Assembly (NCBI RefSeq): GCF_003977615.1
Contig: NZ_RYZR01000003.1
Location: forward strand, 1-64,000
DNA length: 64,000 nucleotides
Direction of reading: 5' to 3'
DNA from: Dyella dinghuensis
GTDB taxonomy: Bacteria; Pseudomonadota; Gammaproteobacteria; Xanthomonadales; Rhodanobacteraceae
Shown: positions 4,454 to 16,014 of the stretch, piece after piece
Numbering within the stretch: position 1 is the first letter of the stretch
Layout of the letters: the number at the start of each line of letters is the position of its first letter
The notes under the pieces: model-generated
Seen by the model: the letters and a program-made list of their open reading frames with translations, nothing else
Databases searched by the model: none
What the model was told of the DNA's origin: nothing
Made by a program: the position numbers and the translations under genes

Positions 4454-6043
4454 ATGATGGCGGCGACGTCAGAGCCATTTCACCTGCACGCACGTGCAGT
4501 CATAGCGCTACAGCAGCAGCTATGGCTGTTGGCCTACGATCTCGCCGTCTGTCAATTGGACCTTACGCCAGAGCACTCGCCGTCGTGTTATGTCGCTGGT
4601 GTCGCGGCAATGGAGCAGCAGAACTGGTCACAAGCGGTGACACATCTTCGCCAAGCAATACAGCTGGCGCCTGAGTGTGCGGAATATGTGGTGCAATGGG
4701 CCAAGGTGTTGAGCTTGACGAATACGTGTGGCGAAGCGCTACGAATGGCGAATCGCGCTGCCAGCCTCACACTTAGCGATCCATTGCTGCTTGATACGCT
4801 TGGCGTGATTTACACCCGCTGCCATGCGCATGAGCGCGCTGCTTTAGCATTTCGCGAAGCGGCACTGCGCGCGCCGCTCAACGCATCTTTCCGGTTCAAC
4901 TACGCGAACGCCTTGATGTACGCAGGCGACAACGACGCAGCAGCAGGCGAATTGGAAACGGTCATCGCACTCAATCCAGGTCATGGGCTGGCTCATTTTA
5001 TGTTGTCGCGGCTTCATCGTCAGACCACGATGGTCAATCATCTGACGCGACTCCAGACCTTAGCCAATCAGACGCCGAGAGGGACTTCTGCTCACGTGTA
5101 TGCCCATATGGCACTGGGAAAGGAGTATGAGGACATCGGCGAGTATGCCCACGCATGGGAGCATTACCGGCAAGGTAAGGCTTCCGTTCCGCCATTGCAT
5201 GTCAACTCGCAACAGCATGATGATGCGCTGTTCGACGCACTGCATGTGGCTTTCGACGCTCCGCACTCGGAGATGGATGGCTGCCGCACTGATGAGGCGA
5301 TCTTCGTGGTGGGTATGCCGCGTACGGGGACCACGTTGGTTGAGCGCATCTTGTCCAATCATCCATATGTCTACGGTGCCGGGGAATTGCCAAACTTCGG
5401 GCTTGCGGTCAAGCAGCTGTCTTCCACCCAGACGCCACATTTGCTGGATGGTGAGACGATCACGCAGGCTGCGTTTTTGCGTCGTTTGGAATTGGGTGAG
5501 CGCTACCTAAGTAGTACCCGACCCCAAACTGACGGAAAGCCGCGTTTCGTCGACAAGCTGCCACACAACTTTCTTTATATCGGCTTCATCGCACAGGCTT
5601 TGCCGCGAGCAAAGATCATATGTTTGCGCCGCCATCCGCTTGATACGTGTCTGAGTAACTTTCGGGAGCTATTCGTACAAGGGTCGCCGTTCCACGATTA
5701 CTCACTCGATTTAATGAAGACCGGCCACTACTACGTTCGATTTCATCGTTTGATGGCGTATTGGAAACGCCTTTTTCCAGACCGTATTTTGGAACTTAAC
5801 TACGAAGACTTGGTGACGGAGCAAGAATTCACAACGCGGAATTTGCTTGCATATTGTGATCTACCTTGGCGCGACAGTTGCCTTCACCATCATGAAAACA
5901 GTGCACCTGTGACCACTGCGAGCTCGGTACAAGTACGTGAGCCGTTACATCGCGGTTCTATGGGGCGCTGGAAAAACTATTCGCCATACTTGGAAGAACT
6001 GTGCGCGTTGCTGCATGACGCAGGAGTTGTGTGGAATGACTGA
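4454..6043 (+). CDS. TPR-domain sulfotransferase, copy 1
   Basis: The protein likely transfers sulfate from PAPS to a glycan or lipid. The N-terminal half (about 1-270) shows repeated helical pairs of tetratricopeptide type. The C-terminal half is a Sulfotransfer_3-like domain with the 5'-phosphosulfate loop GMPRTGTT at about 287-294 and the 3'-phosphate region LRRHPLDTCLSNF further on. I prefer the ATG at 4454 (or the adjacent ATG at 4457) over the one at 4319: GAGG sits about 9 bp upstream and TPR-like sequence begins immediately. It overlaps the next gene by 8 bp. The following protein is a clear paralogue, so this is a tandem duplication. Confidence 0.88.
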   Translation: MMAATSEPFHLHARAVIALQQQLWLLAYDLAVCQLDLTPEHSPSCYVAGVAAMEQQNWSQAVTHLRQAIQLAPECAEYVVQWAKVLSLTNTCGEALRMANRAASLTLSDPLLLDTLGVIYTRCHAHERAALAFREAALRAPLNASFRFNYANALMYAGDNDAAAGELETVIALNPGHGLAHFMLSRLHRQTTMVNHLTRLQTLANQTPRGTSAHVYAHMALGKEYEDIGEYAHAWEHYRQGKASVPPLHVNSQQHDDALFDALHVAFDAPHSEMDGCRTDEAIFVVGMPRTGTTLVERILSNHPYVYGAGELPNFGLAVKQLSSTQTPHLLDGETITQAAFLRRLELGERYLSSTRPQTDGKPRFVDKLPHNFLYIGFIAQALPRAKIICLRRHPLDTCLSNFRELFVQGSPFHDYSLDLMKTGHYYVRFHRLMAYWKRLFPDRILELNYEDLVTEQEFTTRNLLAYCDLPWRDSCLHHHENSAPVTTASSVQVREPLHRGSMGRWKNYSPYLEELCALLHDAGVVWND

Positions 6044-7646
6044 GGTGTTCGCGAAACCCAATTTTCCAACCGCGCAATCGGGCACTGAGTCGCTACATGC
6101 CCAAGCAGTCGCTGCCTTCAAGCTGCGTAATTGGACGCGGGCAGGGGAGTTGGCGCAGGAGGTTACGCGGCAATTACCCGCTCATGACAGCGCGTGGTTT
6201 ATTGCGGGCCTCGCCGCGCTGGAGTTACAGCACTGGCAATTGGCGTTGATATGTCTGCGTAAAGCGACCGACCTAATCCCGAGTAATGCCGCCTACGCGA
6301 CACAGTTTGCGCGGGCGTTGTCCACTGCCAATATGCCAAATTCCGCACTGCGCGCAGCTAATCGTGCGCTCAATCTAGTACCTGACAATGCTTTGACGTT
6401 TCATACCTTGGCGATGGTTTACACGCGGTGCAATGTGCATGAACGGGCGGTGTGCGCTTTGCGTGAGGCGGTCAAACGCGCACCCAAAAACGCCGCAATT
6501 CATTTTGATTACGCCATGGCGCAGGTCTACACCGGCGATATCGATGGCGCGCAGGCGACGTTAGAAACCTGTTTAGCTCTGAATCCACAGGACTGGAGAG
6601 CGTATGCCAAGCGCTCAAAGCTTAGGCGGCAAACACCCGCCAAAAATCATGTGCAGCAGCTTCTTTCGCTGTTGTCACAAACTCAAAGTAACGCGACGGC
6701 ATCAACCTATCTGCACATGGCTTTGAGTAAGGAATACGAGGATTTGCAAGAGTACGCATTGGCGTTCGAGCATCTTTCCCAAGGTAAGGCGATAGCACGG
6801 CGGGAGCGCACTGAGGCCATCCGTGATTATCAAGATATCTTTACGGCGCTGATGGACGCGTTTCCGATGCGGCATTCTGATCTGGCGGGATGCCCAACGG
6901 CGGAGCCCATCTTCGTGGTTGGGATGCCACGTACAGGAACTACGCTAGTCGAGCGCATTCTATCCAGCCATCCCCAGGTGCATTCAATGGGCGAGCTATC
7001 GAATTTCGGTATCGTGCTGAAGCAGCTCGCCGGCTATGGCAGTCGCCCAGGGTTACAGGTGGAAACGATTGTTGCAAGTAAGGCGATATCGTGGCGGATG
7101 CTTGGTGAGAAGTACCTAACTAGCACTCGTCCCGTAACGGATAACAAACCACATTTTATCGACAAGAAGCCACACAATTTTCTCTATATCGGGCACATTG
7201 CACATGCACTGCCTAACGCACGCATTATCTGTTTGCGGCGAGATCCGATGGACACTTGTCTGAGCAATTTTCGTGAGTTGTTTTCACCGGGTGCCGAGTT
7301 CCATGATTATGCGTTGGATTTACTCGATACGGCGAAATACTACGTCGCGTTCGATCGTCTCATGACGCATTGGAAGCGAACGTTCCCCGGGCGCATCTTT
7401 GAAGTGCAATACGAAACGTTGGTCACAGACGTGGAGGCAACGACTCGAGCCATAGTGGCGCATTGCGGGTTGCCGTGGAGTGAAACGTGTCTGCGTTTCG
7501 AGCACAATTCAGCGTCGGTGGCGACAGCAAGTTCCGTGCAGGTAAGGGAGCCCATTTACCGGGCAGCGGCGGGTAGGTGGAAAAAGTACGCGATGCAAAT
7601 GAGTGAGGTGCGCGCATTTCTAGCGGAGGCGGGCGTTGAGATTTGA
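6036..7646 (+). CDS. TPR-domain sulfotransferase, copy 2
   Basis: This 536-residue protein has the same architecture as its upstream neighbour: N-terminal TPR-like helices and a C-terminal sulfotransferase domain with GMPRTGTT at about 296-303 and LRRDPMDTCLSNF. Long segments match copy 1 nearly residue for residue (for example KPHNFLYIGHIAHALP versus LPHNFLYIGFIAQALP), while the TPR halves have diverged more. The ATG at 6036 lies inside the end of copy 1 and begins with the same HAQAV-like helix, so it is preferred over an upstream ATG at 5937. The two copies probably sulfate different positions or acceptors of the same glycan; this is inference. Confidence 0.88.
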   Translation: MTEVFAKPNFPTAQSGTESLHAQAVAAFKLRNWTRAGELAQEVTRQLPAHDSAWFIAGLAALELQHWQLALICLRKATDLIPSNAAYATQFARALSTANMPNSALRAANRALNLVPDNALTFHTLAMVYTRCNVHERAVCALREAVKRAPKNAAIHFDYAMAQVYTGDIDGAQATLETCLALNPQDWRAYAKRSKLRRQTPAKNHVQQLLSLLSQTQSNATASTYLHMALSKEYEDLQEYALAFEHLSQGKAIARRERTEAIRDYQDIFTALMDAFPMRHSDLAGCPTAEPIFVVGMPRTGTTLVERILSSHPQVHSMGELSNFGIVLKQLAGYGSRPGLQVETIVASKAISWRMLGEKYLTSTRPVTDNKPHFIDKKPHNFLYIGHIAHALPNARIICLRRDPMDTCLSNFRELFSPGAEFHDYALDLLDTAKYYVAFDRLMTHWKRTFPGRIFEVQYETLVTDVEATTRAIVAHCGLPWSETCLRFEHNSASVATASSVQVREPIYRAAAGRWKKYAMQMSEVRAFLAEAGVEI

Positions 7647-7735
7647 TTTCAAGGGATCGTCCAACCCGCGGTAGGGTTGCGCCTTGGGTAGGCGGTTTTA
7701 ACGAAGGCTATGCGTTGATCATGCCCTGCGTCTCG

Positions 7736-8172
7736 ATGCCACGAAACATCTCCGTTCTCGACGGCATCCATGGCGTTGCGGCGCTAACCGTGTTTTCGTC
7801 ACATGCGTCGAACATATTCTTTCAAGGTAAATTCCTAGGATGGATGTGGTCGGTTACGTGTGATGTTGTTCTTCGTGCTGAGTGGATTTTGGATGGCCTA
7901 TTTGTATTTGAATACGGCCCCAATGCTAGATCGCAATAGCGTTTTTTTGATCAATCGCATTGCCCACATTTAACCGCTGTTTGTGTTCGTTGTGCTCGCA
8001 AGTTTTACCGTGAACGCATGCGACCTTCGGGTGTGGACTTACCCAATCAAATCTATCGAAGACGTCATGCTTATTTCAGATAAGTTTGCCGTGCGTGGCC
8101 AATGGAGTTAGACCAACTACTTCTTCCTGGGAGGTCCGCTCGGTGCATTGTTCGCGATTCATATGGGGTAAC
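7736..8172 (+). pseudogene. Decayed acyltransferase family 3 (OafA-like) gene
   Basis: The start encodes MPRNISVLDGIHGVAALTVF, close to the first membrane segment of acyltransferase-3 enzymes (typically LDGLRGIAAL). Near 7855-7860 the reading shifts by one base: the next frame continues with VMLFFVLSGFWMAYLYL, the family's second conserved segment. That frame then meets stops at about 7971 (inside RIAHI-stop-PLFVF), 8109 (QWS-stop-TNYFF) and 8168, after which similarity fades. The family O-acylates surface sugars, so this was probably the last modification gene of the preceding glycan cluster and has been lost by one frameshift and several stops. Confidence 0.75.
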
Positions 8173-8311
8173 GGCTTCTAGAGGAAGCTGCTTTAGCCGT
8201 CTATTCAGATTGATATGACTTATTATCCATGCGCAGTAATGGTTTTCGCGCGATACTAAGACGCCAAAGATGGTGCTCCCCAGGGCACGCACTCTCAGAA
8301 ACCATCTGGCA

Positions 8312-8337
8312 AGCCACCTTCGCGGTGGCTTTTTTTT
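8312..8337 (+). terminator. Rho-independent terminator of the glycan cluster
   Basis: AGCCACC pairs with GGTGGCT around the five-base loop TTCGC and is followed directly by seven T on the + strand. It lies after the acyltransferase remnant and probably ends the operon that enters from the left edge. Confidence 0.85.
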
Positions 8338-9298
8338 GCCCGTGTTGACCAGGAATGGTGGCTCTTTTCTTCAGACGTATATCTTCATAGCTATTTGTTT
8401 AATTAAGGCGACGCTTGGAAAGATTCATTGAATATACGCCACGGAAATTGCGTCGGGTCTTCGTCTTCGCCATGACATGCATATGGCTCGATGGCATGGA
8501 TGTTTGTGCAAAAGGAGACAGATTTTACGTGGGGTATGGAAGGGGGCAACATTGGGGGCAACCAAAGGCATCTAATTTGAGTTGGCCCATCAGCTTGAAC
8601 GACGTCGCCACCAGTAGTCCAACGCCGACGAAGAAGCAGGATTCAGCGACTCACTACCATTTATCCGCGCGTTGCTTTTACGTGGAACGATCGGCACTTG
8701 TTTCTTAAGTGAATAGGAAATTTGGATCGTGGAAAACCTGTGGAGCGATTTTCAAAGGTTTTAGCGTGACTGATGTGCCGCGATAGACGCGTTCCAACAA
8801 AGGATCGCAAGAGATAAATACTCAAAACGCCTCTCATGGCCCCTGCTCAAATCGCGATCCATGACGTTGTGAAGCGTCTCGGCGCCCTGTCGACTGGTTA
8901 AGTGACGTATGTAAATCAAGAGTGAAGCTAATCACACTTTTCTATTGATGGGTCTATTTACCAGGCTGATACTCAGTCGGGGCTCAAAGGTCTCATATGG
9001 TTAGCGCAGGCGGTCATGTATCTCGACGGGGGTCGGGATTTGCGAAGCCATCATCTTTGAGCAAAAGAAATCATTGCCGTATTTTCGCCGTTTCTTGACC
9101 GGAACGGCGATGGCTGCCTATGGACAGGATTTAGCGTGGAAATGCCACGAAAGATGATTTGTAGGAAGGATAGACGCGAGGGGTGTGATGACGGTGTGAG
9201 AAAAGCGAAGTGATATCAACACGCGACGTGCCTGCCAAAAGTCAGCCGGGCGGTGCGCCATCAGATTTTAAGCAAAGTACATGATGGGGATTTCATCC
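8338..9298. other. Gene-poor stretch upstream of the S53 protease genes
   Basis: No supported gene is seen in about 960 bases. Open frames such as 8415-8708 have no family similarity that I recognise and biased composition. The stretch carries a CRP/Clp-like palindrome at 8921-8936 and a 26-bp segment shared with 34842-34867. It is probably the regulatory region of the protease pair plus decayed sequence. Confidence 0.5.
8921..8936. promoter_or_regulatory. CRP/Clp-like binding palindrome upstream of S53 protease
   Basis: AGTGA, six bases (AGCTA plus A), then TCACA: this differs from the classical CRP consensus TGTGA-N6-TCACA at one outer base. In Xanthomonadales the CRP homologue Clp controls extracellular enzymes, so a role in protease expression is plausible. 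The site is about 360 bp from the start codon, so the transcript would have a long leader or the site may act elsewhere. Confidence 0.45.
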
Positions 9299-11656
9299 AT
9301 GAGACAAAGGTATTTCATCCTCAGTGCAGCGATTTCTGCGGTACTGGCCAATGCGCCGGGTGCGCTACTGGCGCAATCGGTGGTTACTCGTAATGTGACG
9401 CCTTTAAGTGTTAGCACACCGGAAGCGCCTCGCGTCACACAGACCATCACCAATGCCAACGTAGTGACGATCCAGAAGACCCACCCAGCCTTCGTCGCGC
9501 AGGCAACATCGAGCGCGCCATTGGCCGACACGGCCACCATGAATCACCTGCAACTGGTGCTCAAACCTAGTGCCTCTCGTACGGCGGCAATGGAGTCGCT
9601 GATCTCAAATCAGCACAATCCCACGTCCGCCCAGTTCCATCAATGGCTGACGCCGCAGCAGTTTGGTGATTCCTTTGGTGTCGTCGATAGCGATATCGCG
9701 GCTGTGACGTCTTGGTTAACAGCCCAGGGCTTCGTAGTCAATTACGTCTATCCGAACAAAGCGCAAATTGATTTCACCGGTACTGCAGCACAGGTGAGTC
9801 AAGCGTTCCATACGCGGGAAAATATCTACACAATCGGAAGTGAAAAGCATCTGGCGAATGCCGGCGATATCAGCGTCCCGACAGCATTGCGTCCAGTGAT
9901 TGAAGGTGTGATGGGGCTCAGTGACGTCCACCCCACGGCGCTGCATACAAAGTCGAAATCACAGGTTGCAAAGTGGAGTAAATCAGAGAATGGATTTGTC
10001 TCAAACACTTCCACGAATTCGATGGTCGGTTCGAAGTCGATCGGACAAGCTATGCCATTCACTAACGGCATGCGTGGCTTGGTACCTAACGATATGGTCA
10101 CAATGTACGGTATCAGGACAATTCGCAACAACGGCGTGGTCGGCAAAGGCATCACCATTGCGGTTGTTGAAAGCGGCGACATGGTGCCGACAGACTGGAG
10201 TAACTTTGTCAGTCAATTTAACCTTGCTCAGTATGGTGGTACGTTCAACCTGATTAATCCTGCGCCATCGAGCGGGGCCAACAACTGTAACGATCCTTCG
10301 GTGGCGACTTTCGGTGAGTCCGATGAAACCATTTTAGATGCAGAGTGGGCGACCGCCATCGCACCAGGTGCGAACATCGAAGTTGCTTCGTGTTCTGATT
10401 ACAACGCAGACCAGTCGGGCCCTTCGAGCACCAACTTTTTTGGGGGCGTATTTATTGCGGCTACGAACCTGATCAACGCCAACACACGACCAGACATCAT
10501 CAGCGCTAGCTATGGTTTTGGCGAGTTCTTCGTGGACAGCTCAAGTAAAACGGCGATAGATCTGATGTGGGCACAAGCCGATGCTGAAGGAATTTCGGTG
10601 TTTGTTTCCACCGGAGACTCCGGTTCCAACCCGAGTTTCAACGGAGGGATTATCTATAGCACCGGGCAAGGAAATGCGGCGGTTGACGCAAATGCCTTTG
10701 CTACATCACCGCATGATACTGGAGTGGGTGGGACCGATCTCGCGGACATTCTCGATGGCACAACAAGCCAATACTTTGCACCCACGCCGAGCGTGGTAGG
10801 CGGATCGGCATTGTCCTACGTGCCGGAAATCCCCTGGAATACATCTTGTGGAAACGGTGTCGCGGCGACGTCCCTGGGCTACAGCAGCGCCGTCGCCTTT
10901 TGCCTGGATTTGATGAAGCACGATCCTAGGGGGAACTACCAAACGTCCGAAGCGGGCAGTGGCGGCCCATCTTCTGTAGACGCAAAGCCTGCATGGCAAC
11001 GTCAAATATACAATGCCGCGAATGATCAGTCGCGCGATCTTCCCGATGTGTCGCTGTTCGCTGGATCTTATGGAGGCTACACATCCGTCATTCTATGTAC
11101 TGCCAATTATCCCTGTACGCCGGACTGGAGTACGCCAGTGGAGTTGGTAGAGGGCACGTCGTTATCCGCCCCTATGTTTGCGGGCATCCAGGCGTTGGTC
11201 GACCAGGGTATCGCGGCGCGCGGTTTGCCAGCAGATCAAGGCAATGCGGCACCCACGCTTTATGCGCTGGCAGCTGAAGAATATGGTGGGGCGATTGGGA
11301 CGCCGCCAGCCAGCTTGTCTACATGCAATGCCAACAACGGAGCGGCTGGAACCAGCAGTTGTGTATTCCACAACGTCACCCGTGGCTCCAACTCCACGCA
11401 GTGCGAGGAATTTATAAGTCCGCTTGTTGCATTGCCCAACTGTTACATATACGGACAGGGGGCTGAAAGTCCGTACACCGTACTGGGGTTGACGACATCT
11501 GATGCATCGCCGACGACTTATGGACCGTCTAACAAGGCCTTCGGTGCGCAACCAGGCTGGAGTTTTACGTCCGGGCTTGGCTCCGTGAACGCTACGAACT
11601 TGCTGATCGCATGGCGCGCGTTTGTCCATGCACCCGCGGCGACCGTCGCACCATAG
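9299..11656 (+). CDS. Secreted S53 (sedolisin/pro-kumamolisin) serine-carboxyl protease, catalytically complete
   Basis: An exported acid-type peptidase of 785 residues. A signal peptide occupies about residues 1-26 (ending LLAQ). It is followed by the activation pro-domain (about 70-220, with FHQWLTPQQFGDSFG and ATSWLTAQGF-like motifs) and the catalytic domain. Catalytic residues fit the family: Glu343 and Asp347 in ETILDAEW, the oxyanion Asp440 in STGDSG, and Ser621 in EGTSLSAP. The ATG at 9299 was chosen over 9281 because it aligns with the start of the downstream paralogue and both have a GGGG stretch 9-12 bp upstream. It lies 48 bp before the second S53 gene, so the two are likely co-transcribed. 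Confidence 0.93.
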   Translation: MRQRYFILSAAISAVLANAPGALLAQSVVTRNVTPLSVSTPEAPRVTQTITNANVVTIQKTHPAFVAQATSSAPLADTATMNHLQLVLKPSASRTAAMESLISNQHNPTSAQFHQWLTPQQFGDSFGVVDSDIAAVTSWLTAQGFVVNYVYPNKAQIDFTGTAAQVSQAFHTRENIYTIGSEKHLANAGDISVPTALRPVIEGVMGLSDVHPTALHTKSKSQVAKWSKSENGFVSNTSTNSMVGSKSIGQAMPFTNGMRGLVPNDMVTMYGIRTIRNNGVVGKGITIAVVESGDMVPTDWSNFVSQFNLAQYGGTFNLINPAPSSGANNCNDPSVATFGESDETILDAEWATAIAPGANIEVASCSDYNADQSGPSSTNFFGGVFIAATNLINANTRPDIISASYGFGEFFVDSSSKTAIDLMWAQADAEGISVFVSTGDSGSNPSFNGGIIYSTGQGNAAVDANAFATSPHDTGVGGTDLADILDGTTSQYFAPTPSVVGGSALSYVPEIPWNTSCGNGVAATSLGYSSAVAFCLDLMKHDPRGNYQTSEAGSGGPSSVDAKPAWQRQIYNAANDQSRDLPDVSLFAGSYGGYTSVILCTANYPCTPDWSTPVELVEGTSLSAPMFAGIQALVDQGIAARGLPADQGNAAPTLYALAAEEYGGAIGTPPASLSTCNANNGAAGTSSCVFHNVTRGSNSTQCEEFISPLVALPNCYIYGQGAESPYTVLGLTTSDASPTTYGPSNKAFGAQPGWSFTSGLGSVNATNLLIAWRAFVHAPAATVAP

Positions 11657-11704
11657 TCCTGGCACGCGCCATCAATTTTCAATCAACTTCTGTGGGGCTT
11701 CATC

Positions 11705-14137
11705 ATGAAAGCGAAGCATTTTGTTCTCAGTGCGGCTATCGCTGCAGCGTTGGCCAGCGAACCCAGCATACTATTGGCGCAGCCAATGGTCAGTAGTACG
11801 GCTATTTTAGGCCGTAGTGCCGCTGAAGCGCCGCGAGTAACGCAGTCCGTTACCAACAGTACCCTAGTCACCATTCCAAAATCGCATCCAGGATTGATTT
11901 CTCAAGCATCTTCGATTGTTCCTCTGGCCAATTCGGTCGAGATGAATCACTTACAGTTGGTGCTAAGGCCCAGTGCGGCGCGCACTGCAAACATGGAGGC
12001 GCTGATTGCGAGCCAGCATGATCCGAATTCAGCGCAATTCCATCAATGGCTGACGCCGCAACAGTTTGGAGAATCATTCGGGGTCGTCGACAGCGATATC
12101 GCGGCCGTAACTTCCTGGCTAACCGCGCAAGGCTTCACCGTCAATAATGTGTACCCCAACAAGACTGAGATTGACTTCAGCGGTACGGCGGGACAGGTGA
12201 ATAGTGCGTTTCACACGCGGGAAAACATCTATACGATTGGTAACATCAAGCACCTGGCAAATGCGGATGATGTCAGCATCCCAGCGGCGCTAGAGCCTGT
12301 TGTCACAGGTGTTATGGGTTTGAATGACATGCACGTGGCTGCATTGCATCCGAAATCGCAGGTTGGGCAATGGAATGAGACGAAAAAAAGTCTTATCACC
12401 AAAGATGTTGCTGAGGCTACGACAGCCTCGGCGAAGCGTATCAGCCAAGCCGTTGGCTTCAATGTCGATGGTGGTACGCGTGGTCTCGCGCCGAATGACC
12501 TCGTCACTATGTATGGGATACGGACAATCCGCAATAACGGTGTGACAGGCAAGGGCATCACTATTGCGATTGTCGCGAATGGCGATATGTTGCCCTCCGA
12601 TTGGGCCAATTTCGTAAGCACATTCAATTTGGGCCAGTATGGAGGAACATTCAATCTCATCAATCCAGCACCCGTGAACGGCTCGAACAACTGTGTCGAT
12701 GTCCCTGTTGCCGTATGGGGAGAGTCCGAGTCGGTGGTGGTGGGTGCGGAATGGGCAACCGCGATTGCACCGGGTGCGAACATCGAGGTTGCTAGTTGCG
12801 GGGACTACGACGCCAACGGCAATCAGTTGACAAGTAATTTCTTTGGTGGCGTGTTCATTGCTGCGACAAACATAATCAATGGCACCAATCGACCCGATAT
12901 CATCAGTGCCAGCGCAACTGGCGGTGAGTTGCAGGAATATACTAATAACGTTGGAACTTTTGGCACGGATAGCACTAGCAAGACAGCTATCGATTTGATG
13001 TGGGCACAGGCAGATGCAGAAGGTATCTCTGTATTCACGGCTGCGGGGGACGGTGGTTCCAATGCAGGCTTCGGGTACGACCCTAGTGGGGCTGGTCAGG
13101 AGCAACCAACCATCAATGGAGTCAGCGCTATAGACGCTAACGCGATAGCGACCTCTCCTCATGTTACTGCCGTTGGTGGTACGGACCTGGGCGATGTGTT
13201 GGACGGGACGACCAGCAAATACTTCGCGGCAACTCCCAGCGTGGTAGGTGGGTCGGCGCTGTCTTATGTGCCGGAGATTGCGTGGAATGAGTCTTGCGGC
13301 AATGGTGTGGCTGCGAAGGCTCTTGGGTATAACAGCGCTGTCGCCTTCTGCCAGGATTACTACTTGGCATATGACCCTGATGGTCTTTACACGACATCCA
13401 CCGCCGGAAGTGGGGCTCCGTCTTCGGTCGATGCGAAGCCGGCATGGCAGAGTCAGGTATATAACGCGCCAACGGACCAGTGGCGTGACGTTCCCGATGT
13501 TGCGCTTTTTGCTGGTTCTTATGGGGGCTATACCTACTTCATTGCCTGTAACTCCAGTTATCCCTGCACCCCGGGCTGGTCAGGTCCGGTGGATCTGGAA
13601 TCAGGCACTGCGTTGAGCACGCCGATGTTTGCCGGAATCCAGGCTCTTATCGATCAGGGCATCGCGGCGCGCGGTTTGCCCGCTGATCAAGGCAATGCGG
13701 CACCAACGCTCTATACACTGGCGGCCGAAGAATACGGCAATGCCAGCGGTTCATCTCCTGCTAGTTTGGCTGCGTGCAATGCAGACAACGGCCCCAATGG
13801 CACAAGTGGTTGCGTGTTTCATAACGTGACGCGGGGTTCTATTTCCACTAATTGCGTTCAAATCGATGAGTCAGTAAACCCAGGTATTGCTCCAGCGACG
13901 ACCCCTAATTGCTATTTCTATGGATCGTTGGTCGATACCTTTGGTGATCTTGGTCCAGGACAAGTCGGGTTGACCACTACGGATGCCGCTCCTTCCACTT
14001 ATGGTGTAAGCAACAAGGCGTTTGGGGCTCAACCAGGATGGAGCTTTGCGGCTGGTTTGGGCTCGGTGAACACGACCAATCTCCTCATTGCCTGGAGAGC
14101 ATACGTCCATGCGCCGCCGGCACCACCCGCACCCTGA
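11705..14137 (+). CDS. Secreted S53-like protein lacking the catalytic triad (predicted pseudoprotease)
   Basis: An 810-residue paralogue of the upstream S53 protease with the same layout: signal peptide about 1-26, pro-domain, then a catalytic-type fold. Aligned positions show three key losses. The family Glu is Ser343 and the Asp is Gly347 (reading ESVVVGAEW instead of ETILDAEW), and the nucleophile is Ala636 in SGTALSTP instead of GTSLSAP. The oxyanion Asp449 (AAGDGG) and the structural segments remain. The reading frame is intact, so it does not look decayed. It may act as a binding protein, decoy, chaperone or inhibitor partner of the active copy; that role is inference. Confidence 0.9.
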   Translation: MKAKHFVLSAAIAAALASEPSILLAQPMVSSTAILGRSAAEAPRVTQSVTNSTLVTIPKSHPGLISQASSIVPLANSVEMNHLQLVLRPSAARTANMEALIASQHDPNSAQFHQWLTPQQFGESFGVVDSDIAAVTSWLTAQGFTVNNVYPNKTEIDFSGTAGQVNSAFHTRENIYTIGNIKHLANADDVSIPAALEPVVTGVMGLNDMHVAALHPKSQVGQWNETKKSLITKDVAEATTASAKRISQAVGFNVDGGTRGLAPNDLVTMYGIRTIRNNGVTGKGITIAIVANGDMLPSDWANFVSTFNLGQYGGTFNLINPAPVNGSNNCVDVPVAVWGESESVVVGAEWATAIAPGANIEVASCGDYDANGNQLTSNFFGGVFIAATNIINGTNRPDIISASATGGELQEYTNNVGTFGTDSTSKTAIDLMWAQADAEGISVFTAAGDGGSNAGFGYDPSGAGQEQPTINGVSAIDANAIATSPHVTAVGGTDLGDVLDGTTSKYFAATPSVVGGSALSYVPEIAWNESCGNGVAAKALGYNSAVAFCQDYYLAYDPDGLYTTSTAGSGAPSSVDAKPAWQSQVYNAPTDQWRDVPDVALFAGSYGGYTYFIACNSSYPCTPGWSGPVDLESGTALSTPMFAGIQALIDQGIAARGLPADQGNAAPTLYTLAAEEYGNASGSSPASLAACNADNGPNGTSGCVFHNVTRGSISTNCVQIDESVNPGIAPATTPNCYFYGSLVDTFGDLGPGQVGLTTTDAAPSTYGVSNKAFGAQPGWSFAAGLGSVNTTNLLIAWRAYVHAPPAPPAP

Positions 14138-14589
14138 TGAGACTCCACATTTAAAAAGGTAAGACAACACTTGAGCTAGCGACCCGGCGGCAGCGTGCCG
14201 CCCGGGTCCCTAAAGCAAGGTGCACTTCACCGTCTCTGTATAGAAAAGAGACGAGAAGGGGAGTGCTCCAAATTTCGCTCTCTACGGAGGCATTGCGCTC
14301 TAGACCCTACACCCCGTCGTATTGCCACCTTGCCGCCGTTCAATTAAGGCAACTGGCAAGGATTCCGAGAAAACAGCTGGATCCCCCAGAGCTAGATGTA
14401 TGCGCTGAACCACTCATATTGCGAAAGCAATCTTAGGCACTTTTGAACGGCCCGCATATGAGCTTTTTTTCAACATGTGCAGCATTGGAACTCCTTTCTG
14501 CCGAAGGAAAACGAAAGCGCCGATTTGGGCTTTACAGAAGCGCGTGCTCGGTTAGTCAGTCCGAAATGGGGCGTTTAAATGGCTCTCTT
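14138..14589. other. Intergenic region between S53 pair and aldehyde dehydrogenase
   Basis: About 450 bases between convergent genes with no supported gene. It contains the GC-rich hairpin at 14181-14209; otherwise I see nothing in it. Confidence 0.5.
14181..14209 (+). terminator. Strong GC hairpin after the S53 genes
   Basis: GACCCGGCGGCA pairs with TGCCGCCCGGGTC around GCG, with one bulged base. It sits about 45 bp after the second S53 stop. No T tract follows, so intrinsic termination is uncertain; it may protect the transcript 3' end. Confidence 0.35.
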
Positions 14590-16014
14590 TCATGCCGCAG
14601 CCGTGCCCAGGACGGCCTTGGGCTCAACATAGGCCTGTAGTCCGAATACGCCATATTCGCGGCCGATGCCTGATTGCTTGAATCCGCCGAAAGGGACCGA
14701 CGGGTCGTGCGGTGCGCCATTGATGACGACACGTCCAGCCACGATCTGGTTCGCTACCACCTTCGCGCGATCCGGGTTGGACGAGATGACATAGGCTTGC
14801 AACCCGTAGGGCGTGTCATTGGCAATCGCGATGGCTTCTGCTTCGTCCTCATAAGTCAGCAAACACAGCACAGGGCCAAAAACCTCTTCTCTGGCAATCG
14901 TCATGTCATTGGTGACATGCGCGAAAACGGTCGGCTTCACGAAGTAGCCGCCCAGTCCTTCAGGATGGCCTTGACCGCCCGCCACAAGGGTGGCGCCTGA
15001 CTCAATCCCAAGTCGAATGTAGCCTTGGACTCGCTCATACTGTGTCTGGCTTACCATCGGCCCAATGGTTGTAGTGGCATCGCTCGGGTTGCCCGCCTTA
15101 ATTTTTCCGAAGCTAACCTGTATCGCTGCAATCGCGTCAGCAAGTCGCGAACCCGGAACGAGGATGCGAGTACCTGCAACACAAGCCTGGCCGCTGTTCG
15201 CGAAACCGGCCTCGAGCGCCAAGGGAATCGCAGTAGCGAAGTCGGCGTCGTCAAGGATTATCGTCGGTGACTTGCCGCCAAGTTCCAAGGTCACACGCTT
15301 GAGCGTGTCGGCAGCCGCGCGAAGGATTGACTTGCCCACGGCTGTGGAACCAGTAAAAGAGATTTTCGATACGTCTGGACTTGCGGTGATTTCTGCGCCC
15401 ACCACGTCGCCTCGTCCATTGACCAGGTTGAACAGGCCGGGCTGTACACCTGCATCATGCAGCGCTTCAAGGACTATCTGCGTCTGAGTTGCGCTCATCT
15501 CGCTAGGCTTGATGACCGCGGTGCATCCAGCGGCTAGCGCATAAGCAAGCTTGTTGCAGATAAAGCCAGCATTGCTATTCCATGGGGTGATCAGCCCCAC
15601 CACGCCGATGGCTTCCATGATCACGTCCGCGTTGCCAATGCGTTGCGTCAGATCGAAACTCTCCAACGCACGCGCAGCGTCCATGAAGCTGTTGGATGCG
15701 TGAGCTGCCATCCAGGTCGCTCGGGAAGCCGGTGCGCCGTATTCAAGAATGATTGCGTCCCGCAACACTTGCTTCCTAGCTTCCATTGCTTCATGAAGGC
15801 GGCGTAGAAGGGCAATGCGTTCCGCTTTCGTGCTCCGTGACCACGCCGGAAATGCACGCTTTGCGGCAGCGATGGCGGCTTTCGTATCATGCGCATCCCC
15901 CAGCCTAACGCGGCCGAATACCTCTCCGGTCGTGGGGTTGTGCAGATCAAATAGCTCGGTTCCGTGAGGCTCGACGAACCGGCCATCGATATAGATTTGA
16001 GTGATTTCTTGCAT
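14590..16014 (-). CDS. NAD(P)-dependent aldehyde dehydrogenase
   Basis: A 474-residue cytosolic enzyme oxidising an aldehyde to the acid. Family features are all present: the PWN motif at 144-146, general base Glu244 in TLELGGKSP, nucleophile Cys278 in FANSGQACVAG, and the NAD-binding FTGST segment near 220-224. The ATG at 16014 gives the standard length. It is divergent from a LysR gene 100 bp away, which probably controls it. Sequence alone does not give the substrate; the family includes many broad-range enzymes. Confidence 0.93.
   Translation of the reverse strand: MQEITQIYIDGRFVEPHGTELFDLHNPTTGEVFGRVRLGDAHDTKAAIAAAKRAFPAWSRSTKAERIALLRRLHEAMEARKQVLRDAIILEYGAPASRATWMAAHASNSFMDAARALESFDLTQRIGNADVIMEAIGVVGLITPWNSNAGFICNKLAYALAAGCTAVIKPSEMSATQTQIVLEALHDAGVQPGLFNLVNGRGDVVGAEITASPDVSKISFTGSTAVGKSILRAAADTLKRVTLELGGKSPTIILDDADFATAIPLALEAGFANSGQACVAGTRILVPGSRLADAIAAIQVSFGKIKAGNPSDATTTIGPMVSQTQYERVQGYIRLGIESGATLVAGGQGHPEGLGGYFVKPTVFAHVTNDMTIAREEVFGPVLCLLTYEDEAEAIAIANDTPYGLQAYVISSNPDRAKVVANQIVAGRVVINGAPHDPSVPFGGFKQSGIGREYGVFGLQAYVEPKAVLGTAAA

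Follow-up and report, generated by a model that had tools for sequence, protein, structure and literature searches.

Two adjacent genes of Dyella dinghuensis raise the question of why a genome would keep a protease-like protein that lacks the residues for cutting directly beside a relative that has them. Both lie on the forward strand of the window, the 64,000-nucleotide stretch of DNA that was analysed (contig 6 of the 4.2 Mb host genome, which has 17 Pro-kuma_activ matches). The first gene, P1 (9299..11656), encodes an S53 (sedolisin/kumamolisin-type) protease precursor with an intact catalytic triad. The second, P2 (11705..14137), encodes an 810-residue protein without the triad, a putative S53-fold pseudoprotease. 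As the preliminary description had stated, both frames are intact (9281/9299-11656 and 11705-14137) and the co-oriented genes are 48 bp apart (11657-11704). P1 is 785 residues long from the ATG at 9299, from which its residues are numbered here, or 791 from the ATG at 9281, which makes all numbers six higher; its start is preceded by GGGG-ATTTCATCC-ATG, to be compared with GGGG-CTTCATC-ATG at P2. Secretion of both proteins is predicted from an N-terminal hydrophobic stretch. The genes are similar in composition (GC 0.546 for P1 and 0.542 for P2, GC3 0.583 and 0.55, window GC 0.548), and the proteins share 66% identity over 807 columns (BLASTP). Chance similarity was dismissed, as this identity spans the full length, and so was an assembly or frameshift artefact in P2, which is a single open frame on one contig and has a matching copy in Dyella sp. 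S184.

P2 retains the architecture of the family. The pro-kumamolisin activation domain (PF09286) occurs at 9509..9925 in P1 and 11930..12328 in P2, both on the forward strand, with scores of 95.8 and 94.8 bits against a cut-off of 23.5, which bears out the earlier claim that both proteins keep it. It is the only domain that Pfam detects in P2, and no NCBIfam model matched P1 or P2 at E <= 0.01. Ten cysteines are conserved in P2. By sequence, P1 matches pro-kumamolisin 1t1e (E 4.3e-08) and P2 matches nothing in the PDB at E <= 0.001. AlphaFold models were obtained for P1 (pLDDT 87.2, pTM 0.90) and P2 (pLDDT 85.2, pTM 0.90), and a Foldseek search with the P2 model placed 1t1e first (E 1.1e-29, TM 0.80 by target length, 21% identity), with S53 structures at ranks 1-17 and subtilases below. 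Judged by its pro-domain and modelled fold, P2 is an S53 homologue.

The catalytic residues tell the two proteins apart. Alignment places the P1 residues at Glu343 and Asp347 (ETILD, 10325..10339, also found by a motif scan), at the oxyanion Asp (STGDSG, 10616..10618) and at the nucleophile Ser621 (GTSLSAP, 11159..11161), all on the forward strand; P1 therefore has the full set of an S53 peptidase, with Glu and Asp in an ExxxD motif and Ser in GTSxxxP. The corresponding forward-strand sites of P2 read Ser343 and Gly347 (SVVVG, 12731..12745) and Ala636 (SGTALSTP, 13610..13612), and only the oxyanion residue, Asp449, is kept (AAGDGG, 13049..13051). Without a Glu-Asp-Ser triad, P2 does not qualify as an S53 peptidase. 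These assignments agree to the residue with the preliminary description, which had also noted the retained oxyanion Asp, and its proposal to align the proteins to a characterised structure bore fruit: the residues map onto the Glu, Asp, oxyanion Asp and Ser sites of kumamolisin 1t1e fragments, although 1t1e as deposited has Ala at the Ser site (GTA). When the proteins are aligned with the kumamolisin fragments and some 90 relatives, the stretch from the Glu to the Asp site and the Ser motif are both free of gaps; gap columns start two to four residues upstream of the Glu site.

A triad preserved elsewhere in P2, named in the preliminary description as an outcome that would overturn it, was looked for and ruled out: the 810 residues hold no E-x-x-x-D and none of the three Ser-motif patterns scanned (GTSxxxP, SGTxxxP and TSxx[AS]P). 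The same scan of P1 finds two ExxxD and the GTS motif. P2 is further changed at Glu297 (where it has Ala), Tyr411, Gly412, Asn454 and Glu557 (P1 numbering). Ala404-Thr405 (12914..12919, forward strand, by alignment) replaces Tyr411-Gly412 of the S-Y-G strand; for this strand and the Glu297-type residue we assume the roles described for sedolisins. Because residues are inserted in the Asn454 loop of P2, the column that pairs with Asn454 is uncertain (Gly by BLAST, Ala by MAFFT).

Among the 17 S53 proteins of the host genome, 15 keep Glu/Asp/Asp/Ser at the Glu, Asp, oxyanion Asp and Ser sites, the exceptions being P2 and one other. This second triad-less protein (L156:1146-3998, forward strand; host contig 6, 434645-437497) has 951 residues and reads Leu/Asp/Asp/Asn, with GTN in place of GTS. 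All 30 of the other S53 rows aligned with it have Glu/Asp/Asp/Ser (four unrelated ORFs were excluded from that alignment), and no other S53 neighbour was seen within the 6 kb examined around it.

The preliminary description had proposed a search of related genomes for pairs of active and inactive copies. Dyella sp. S184 (G188, locus L132) carries such a tandem pair, in which the first copy (S184a) reads Glu/Asp/Asp/Ser and the second (S184b) reads Gly/Asp/Asp/Gly in an open frame, so that S184b, unlike P2, keeps the triad Asp. A second copy frameshifted in relatives, which would have spoken against the earlier reading, is thus not what S184 holds. In a careful tree, from which the catalytic columns and those of three further positions (Gly412, Asn454 and Glu557) were removed, P1 groups with S184a (support 100/99), P2 with S184b (88/88, a value that is not starred) and all four together (86/92). 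In a quick tree of 92 rows, SH-aLRT support for these groups is 98, 98 and 94. The likeliest history, as read from these sequences, is that a pair of the P1/P2 type predates the split, with the live copy staying live and the dead copy staying open in both genomes. What the two genomes have in common is the pair itself, since none of the five window neighbours adjoins the pair in S184. In D. psychrodurans (L137, genus-mate G011) both copies of the pair are intact, and a dead partner is therefore not obligatory.

We then examined how widely such changes occur. In total, 233 genomes of the family were searched and 47 had a match at E <= 1e-150; the best four candidates per genome were scored and the collection was scanned once, so the set is not exhaustive. 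Loci L001-L151 yielded 92 distinct sequences of at least 400 bits, of which 89, including P1 and P2, were counted. The 89 do not include three outgroup sequences or the cut fragments L059 2215-4176, L122 2-1867 and L084, and L085 fell below 400 bits. Loci after L151 were checked separately and added one member, L199, for a total of 90. Gly412, Asn454 and Glu557, which lie near the catalytic motifs, are all kept by 80 of the 90, all lost by eight, and two of the three are lost by two members. The first count of 89 had given 80, eight and one (L122b, without 454 and 557); L199 lacks 412 and 454 and keeps Glu557, which makes the joint loss less clean than first counted. Asn454 is changed in 10/10 changed members and 0/80 others, and Gly412 and Glu557 in nine each. 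In three outgroup S53 lines, Glu297 and S-Y-G are present and Asn454 and Glu557 are not, so the latter two mark this subfamily only; to judge from where they fall in the alignment, they may line the substrate cleft.

The ten changed members come from eight genomes, and seven of them lack a triad residue. Besides P2 (Ser/Gly/Asp/Ala) and S184b (Gly/Asp/Asp/Gly), these are L114a from Rhodanobacter MP7CTX1, L124a and L199 from Rhodanobacter L36 and L059a from a MAG, all with Ser for Glu, and L112b from Rhodanobacter C05, with Asn for Asp. L126b (Rhodanobacter C03), L122b (Rhodanobacter L36) and L128b (Luteibacter yeojuensis) keep Glu, Asp and Ser, so that calling them inactive depends on the other changes alone. 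Within the lineage of L114a, L124a and L059a, Glu is Ser in 3/3 and the oxyanion Asp is Gly in 2/3, while Asp and Ser are kept. L199 (G187 contig 4, 151109-153460, minus strand) has Asn for the oxyanion Asp in the full alignment, Ser for Gly412 and Tyr for Asn454. Three of the ten thus belong to Rhodanobacter L36, where one S53 array contains two of them. A search with L124a matched seven of the 233 genomes at E <= 1e-250, returned the L114a and L059a lineage and, at that threshold, yielded no further close member except L199 at 58%.

Changed copies sit beside normal ones. A co-oriented paralogue lies within 1.5 kb of 9/9 changed members and 26/77 others, with three undetermined (Fisher p 1.5e-4, from sequences that are not independent). 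L199 also adjoins an S53 paralogue, ending 73 bp from it, so 10/10 changed members adjoin one. All three positions are kept in each of the adjoining copies; the copies next to L059a and L199 are cut in the loci used. Tandem members are mostly normal (26/35 in the adjacency count). The p-values are guides only, because the positions were noticed after the data had been seen and the sequences are related.

These changes arose more than once. A single origin of nine changed members is rejected (AU p 8.9e-7), with five changes on a 32-row tree; three changes are needed in the quick tree, where seven members are labelled, and five in the careful tree, where nine are. L128b is placed with the L114a lineage at 100 in the quick tree and with its own neighbour at 44/99 in the careful tree, and L199 is absent from the trees, the dN/dS estimates and the Fisher count. 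Two further arrays were recorded: a two-copy array in Rhodanobacter C03 (L126:3342-5888 and 5895-8471), whose changed member L126b has an intact triad, and four tandem copies in Rhodanobacter C05 (L112:5033-16678), whose changed member L112b has Asn for Asp. The two arrays possibly represent a series of stages of loss.

The surroundings of the S53 genes vary. In the window, two tandem TPR-sulfotransferases (PF13469; 4319-6043 and 5937-7646, forward strand) lie upstream of the pair, and a relative with about 54% identity adjoins another S53 pair (L071 8038-9597). The 1.6 kb upstream of P1 (7647-9280) has no ORF of 100 residues; the first short frame there (7643-7939) looks by eye like an acyltransferase remnant. 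Sigma-70-like sites in 7600-14700 number two, against 6.2 in shuffles, with none just before P1. Relatives of a TrmB-type regulator (35-63%) lie 45-720 bp from an S53 frame in 15 copies at 14 distinct loci (L132:4688-5725, L137:11782-12912, L124, L114, L122 with two, L123, L126, L112, L133, L134, L071, L140, L082 and L129); the Pfam TrmB assignment was checked in five copies. In L126, L124 and L112 the regulator carries a fused integrase-type Arm-DNA-bind_3 domain, which is an unusual combination. Unlike many other S53 arrays, the window has no such regulator. Several S53 arrays are followed by a protein of about 250 residues that starts HLPKTGGTSF or HLPKTAGTSF (L132:11305-12069, L137:5464-6216, L112:16834-17568, L133, L127 and L125), a motif that we take to be PAPS-loop-like; at E <= 0.01, Pfam gave no match to the L132 copy.

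Similarly altered copies beside normal ones in relatives suggest a function for the dead copy alongside the live one. It is very probable that P2 is non-proteolytic and selectively maintained. Our favoured explanation, which we hold with fair confidence, is that P2 is a secreted S53 pseudoprotease kept by selection and most likely serves as a non-proteolytic partner of P1; on the narrower point of whether it acts as a partner of P1 rather than alone, we lean towards the former. Its secretion, its loss of activity, a physical partnership with P1 and the direction of any effect are all inferred. In such a partnership, P2 would be made next to P1 and fold with its own pro-domain, which P2 itself should not be able to remove. 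It would then act on P1 through its surface or pro-domain, and the possible effects include heteromer formation, folding or stability, the timing of activation, and inhibition.

The strongest competitor, although unlikely, is a stand-alone secreted binding protein, be it an adhesin, sensor or scaffold, in which the S53 fold serves a surface function unconnected with P1; it would lie next to P1 only as a result of tandem duplication. The P2 model has low-confidence loops (pLDDT < 50) at 410-418 and 457-472, consisting partly of inserted residues, where P1 has no such stretch, and the triad-less L156 of the same host has no second S53 gene within 6 kb; both would suit a protein that works alone. 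Such independence is harder to reconcile with the paralogue beside all ten changed members of the subfamily and with the S184 locus, where the pair is the shared part and none of the five window neighbours is found beside it.

Less probable still is that P2 shields P1 as a decoy, soaking up protease inhibitors or the proteases of competing or predatory organisms. A decoy would be expected to look much like P2 in that the fold and pro-domain are kept, the triad is lost and the gene is co-located with the live form. Inhibitors of the S53 clan mostly bind the substrate cleft, however, and what the changed members lack are positions close to the catalytic motifs.

That P2 is a pseudogene early in decay, open by chance, is very improbable. 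Two observations would fit decay: no ORF in the 1.6 kb upstream of P1 reaches 100 residues, and the terminal branch of P2 is slightly longer than that of P1 (0.27 vs 0.22 in the quick tree). Against it stand the 810-codon open frame, the conserved ten cysteines and pro-domain, a GC3 near that of P1, the triad-less open copy in S184 and the changed copies elsewhere. Comparison of P2 with S184b over 787 codons gives pN 0.205 and pS 0.734; with synonymous sites close to saturation, the pN/pS of 0.28 is the only safe value. P1 and S184a give pN 0.154 and pS 0.714. In the lineage of L114a, L124a and L059a, where dS is unsaturated (0.82-0.97), the three pairs have dN/dS of 0.195, 0.161 and 0.193, compared with 0.169 for the normal partners L114b and L124b. 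Selection would thus appear to maintain the pseudoproteases, with dS saturated for P2 and unsaturated for the L114a-type lineage. The earlier reading of a selected pseudoprotease rather than decay is supported by this purifying selection, by the open S184b and by recurrence. Across all 202 loci, adjacent part-matches lying in different frames (at least 45% identity to P2) turned up once, at L085; its position at a contig end, with masked sequence separating the parts, allows no verdict on breakage. Because open frames were the starting point for the set of relatives, broken copies may have been sampled too sparsely.

Constraint is not uniform along the dead copies. Identical positions in the pro-domain number 105/139 in the P2 line and 107/139 in the P1 line (p 0.89), whereas the N-terminal catalytic half is relaxed in the P2 line (130/192 vs 165/193, p 3.9e-5, one of ten such comparisons). 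The P2-line linker is somewhat relaxed (p 0.044, among the same ten), and relaxation is not clear in the C-terminal catalytic half and the tail (p 0.072 and 0.69). The second lineage, of the L114a type, shows no relaxation in any part, and its linker is better conserved than the partner's (35/46 vs 23/47, p 0.01). P2 changes 12 of the 181 positions that are at least 97% conserved in the 80 normal members; all 12 fall at P1 267-640 and none in the pro-domain or C-terminus. Of the normal members, 42/80 have no such change and the highest count is 10, values that are low partly by construction because the thresholds were set on those same 80. Other changed members do alter conserved pro-domain or C-terminal positions (for example, seven and two in L128b, three and four in L122b).

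The suggestion in the preliminary description that P2 could be a substrate trap, its cleft binding the substrates of P1 without cutting them, has lost ground and now seems highly unlikely. The other roles that it had named, inhibitor, folding partner and surface binding protein, may still apply. The kept oxyanion Asp and overall fold would suit a trap or peptide-binding protein. A trap, however, would be expected to keep its substrate contacts, and conserved positions near the catalytic motifs were lost together with the triad, namely Gly412 of the S-Y-G strand, Asn454, Glu557 and the Glu297 position (Asn454 and Glu557 being only putative contacts). A P2 that still cuts, with an activity changed through other residues, would suit the kept oxyanion Asp and altered loops and is about equally improbable. 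P2 lacks both an ExxxD motif and the nucleophile Ser and has Ala where Glu297 would be, and a Ser to Ala change, read as GTA in 1t1e, is the engineered inactive form of pro-kumamolisin.

A non-cutting partner of P1 fits better than a substrate trap or decoy with the loss of the cutting residues and their surroundings and with the retained pro-domain, shell and adjacency. A broader and more tentative proposal is that tandem S53 arrays in Rhodanobacteraceae repeatedly convert one copy into a non-cutting subunit. Gly412, Asn454 and Glu557 could go first (as in L126b and L122b) and the triad later (L112b; L114a, L124a, L059a and L199; all three residues in P2), and the dead member might control folding, activation or targeting as an acid-protease counterpart of CspB/CspA/CspC. 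If true, lineages at different stages of loss would make the path from enzyme to pseudoenzyme readable, and S53 enzymes, among them Kuma030, a gluten hydrolase, and TPP1, a human disease enzyme, would have a naturally recurring dead-partner form. By homology alone P2 would be called an S53 protease, and Pfam reports only its pro-domain; a changed Asn454 (10/10 vs 0/80) offers a search mark inside this subfamily.

In the open-licence literature we found nothing on sedolisin pseudoproteases or pseudoenzymes and, among the matches listed, no description of an S53 pseudoprotease pair; for kumamolisin in Rhodanobacter, the match was a paper on a soil community. In a fungal survey, checks of catalytic sites and structure left 204 of 230 homologues (PMC6278154), and a degradome study classes proteins by the presence of active-site residues (PMC7804941). 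The survey figures, as given in the accessible part of that paper, suggest that S53 homologues lacking catalytic residues are commonly left aside, and in their accessible parts neither paper takes up tandem pairs of active and inactive copies or how selection acts on them.

Among characterised proteins, kumamolisin and pro-kumamolisin (1t1e, 1gt9) and TPP1 (3edy, 3ee6) resemble P1 and P2 in pro-domain, fold and order of catalytic motifs. Both P1 and P2 are longer, and P2 differs in having neither the Glu, Asp, Ser triad nor a PDB sequence match. The closest parallel in arrangement is the Csp set of C. difficile, in which, according to the accessible part of one study, the active protease CspB is encoded with the triad-less CspA and CspC, which are thought to control its activation; the csp genes are predicted to be active in other clostridia (PMC12880746). 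The likeness, active and dead paralogues encoded together, is one of arrangement only. The Csp proteins are spore proteins of clan SB, family S8, with a studied signalling role, and P1 and P2 are not members of that family because P1 has the S53 Glu-Asp-Ser signature. Moreover, in C. difficile the two dead members pair with each other in a complex that, in the same partial account, excludes CspB (PMC12880746). The active/dead pair would therefore be of a kind known from family S8, for which we found no S53 example described, and its likeness to Csp may lie in how the system works.
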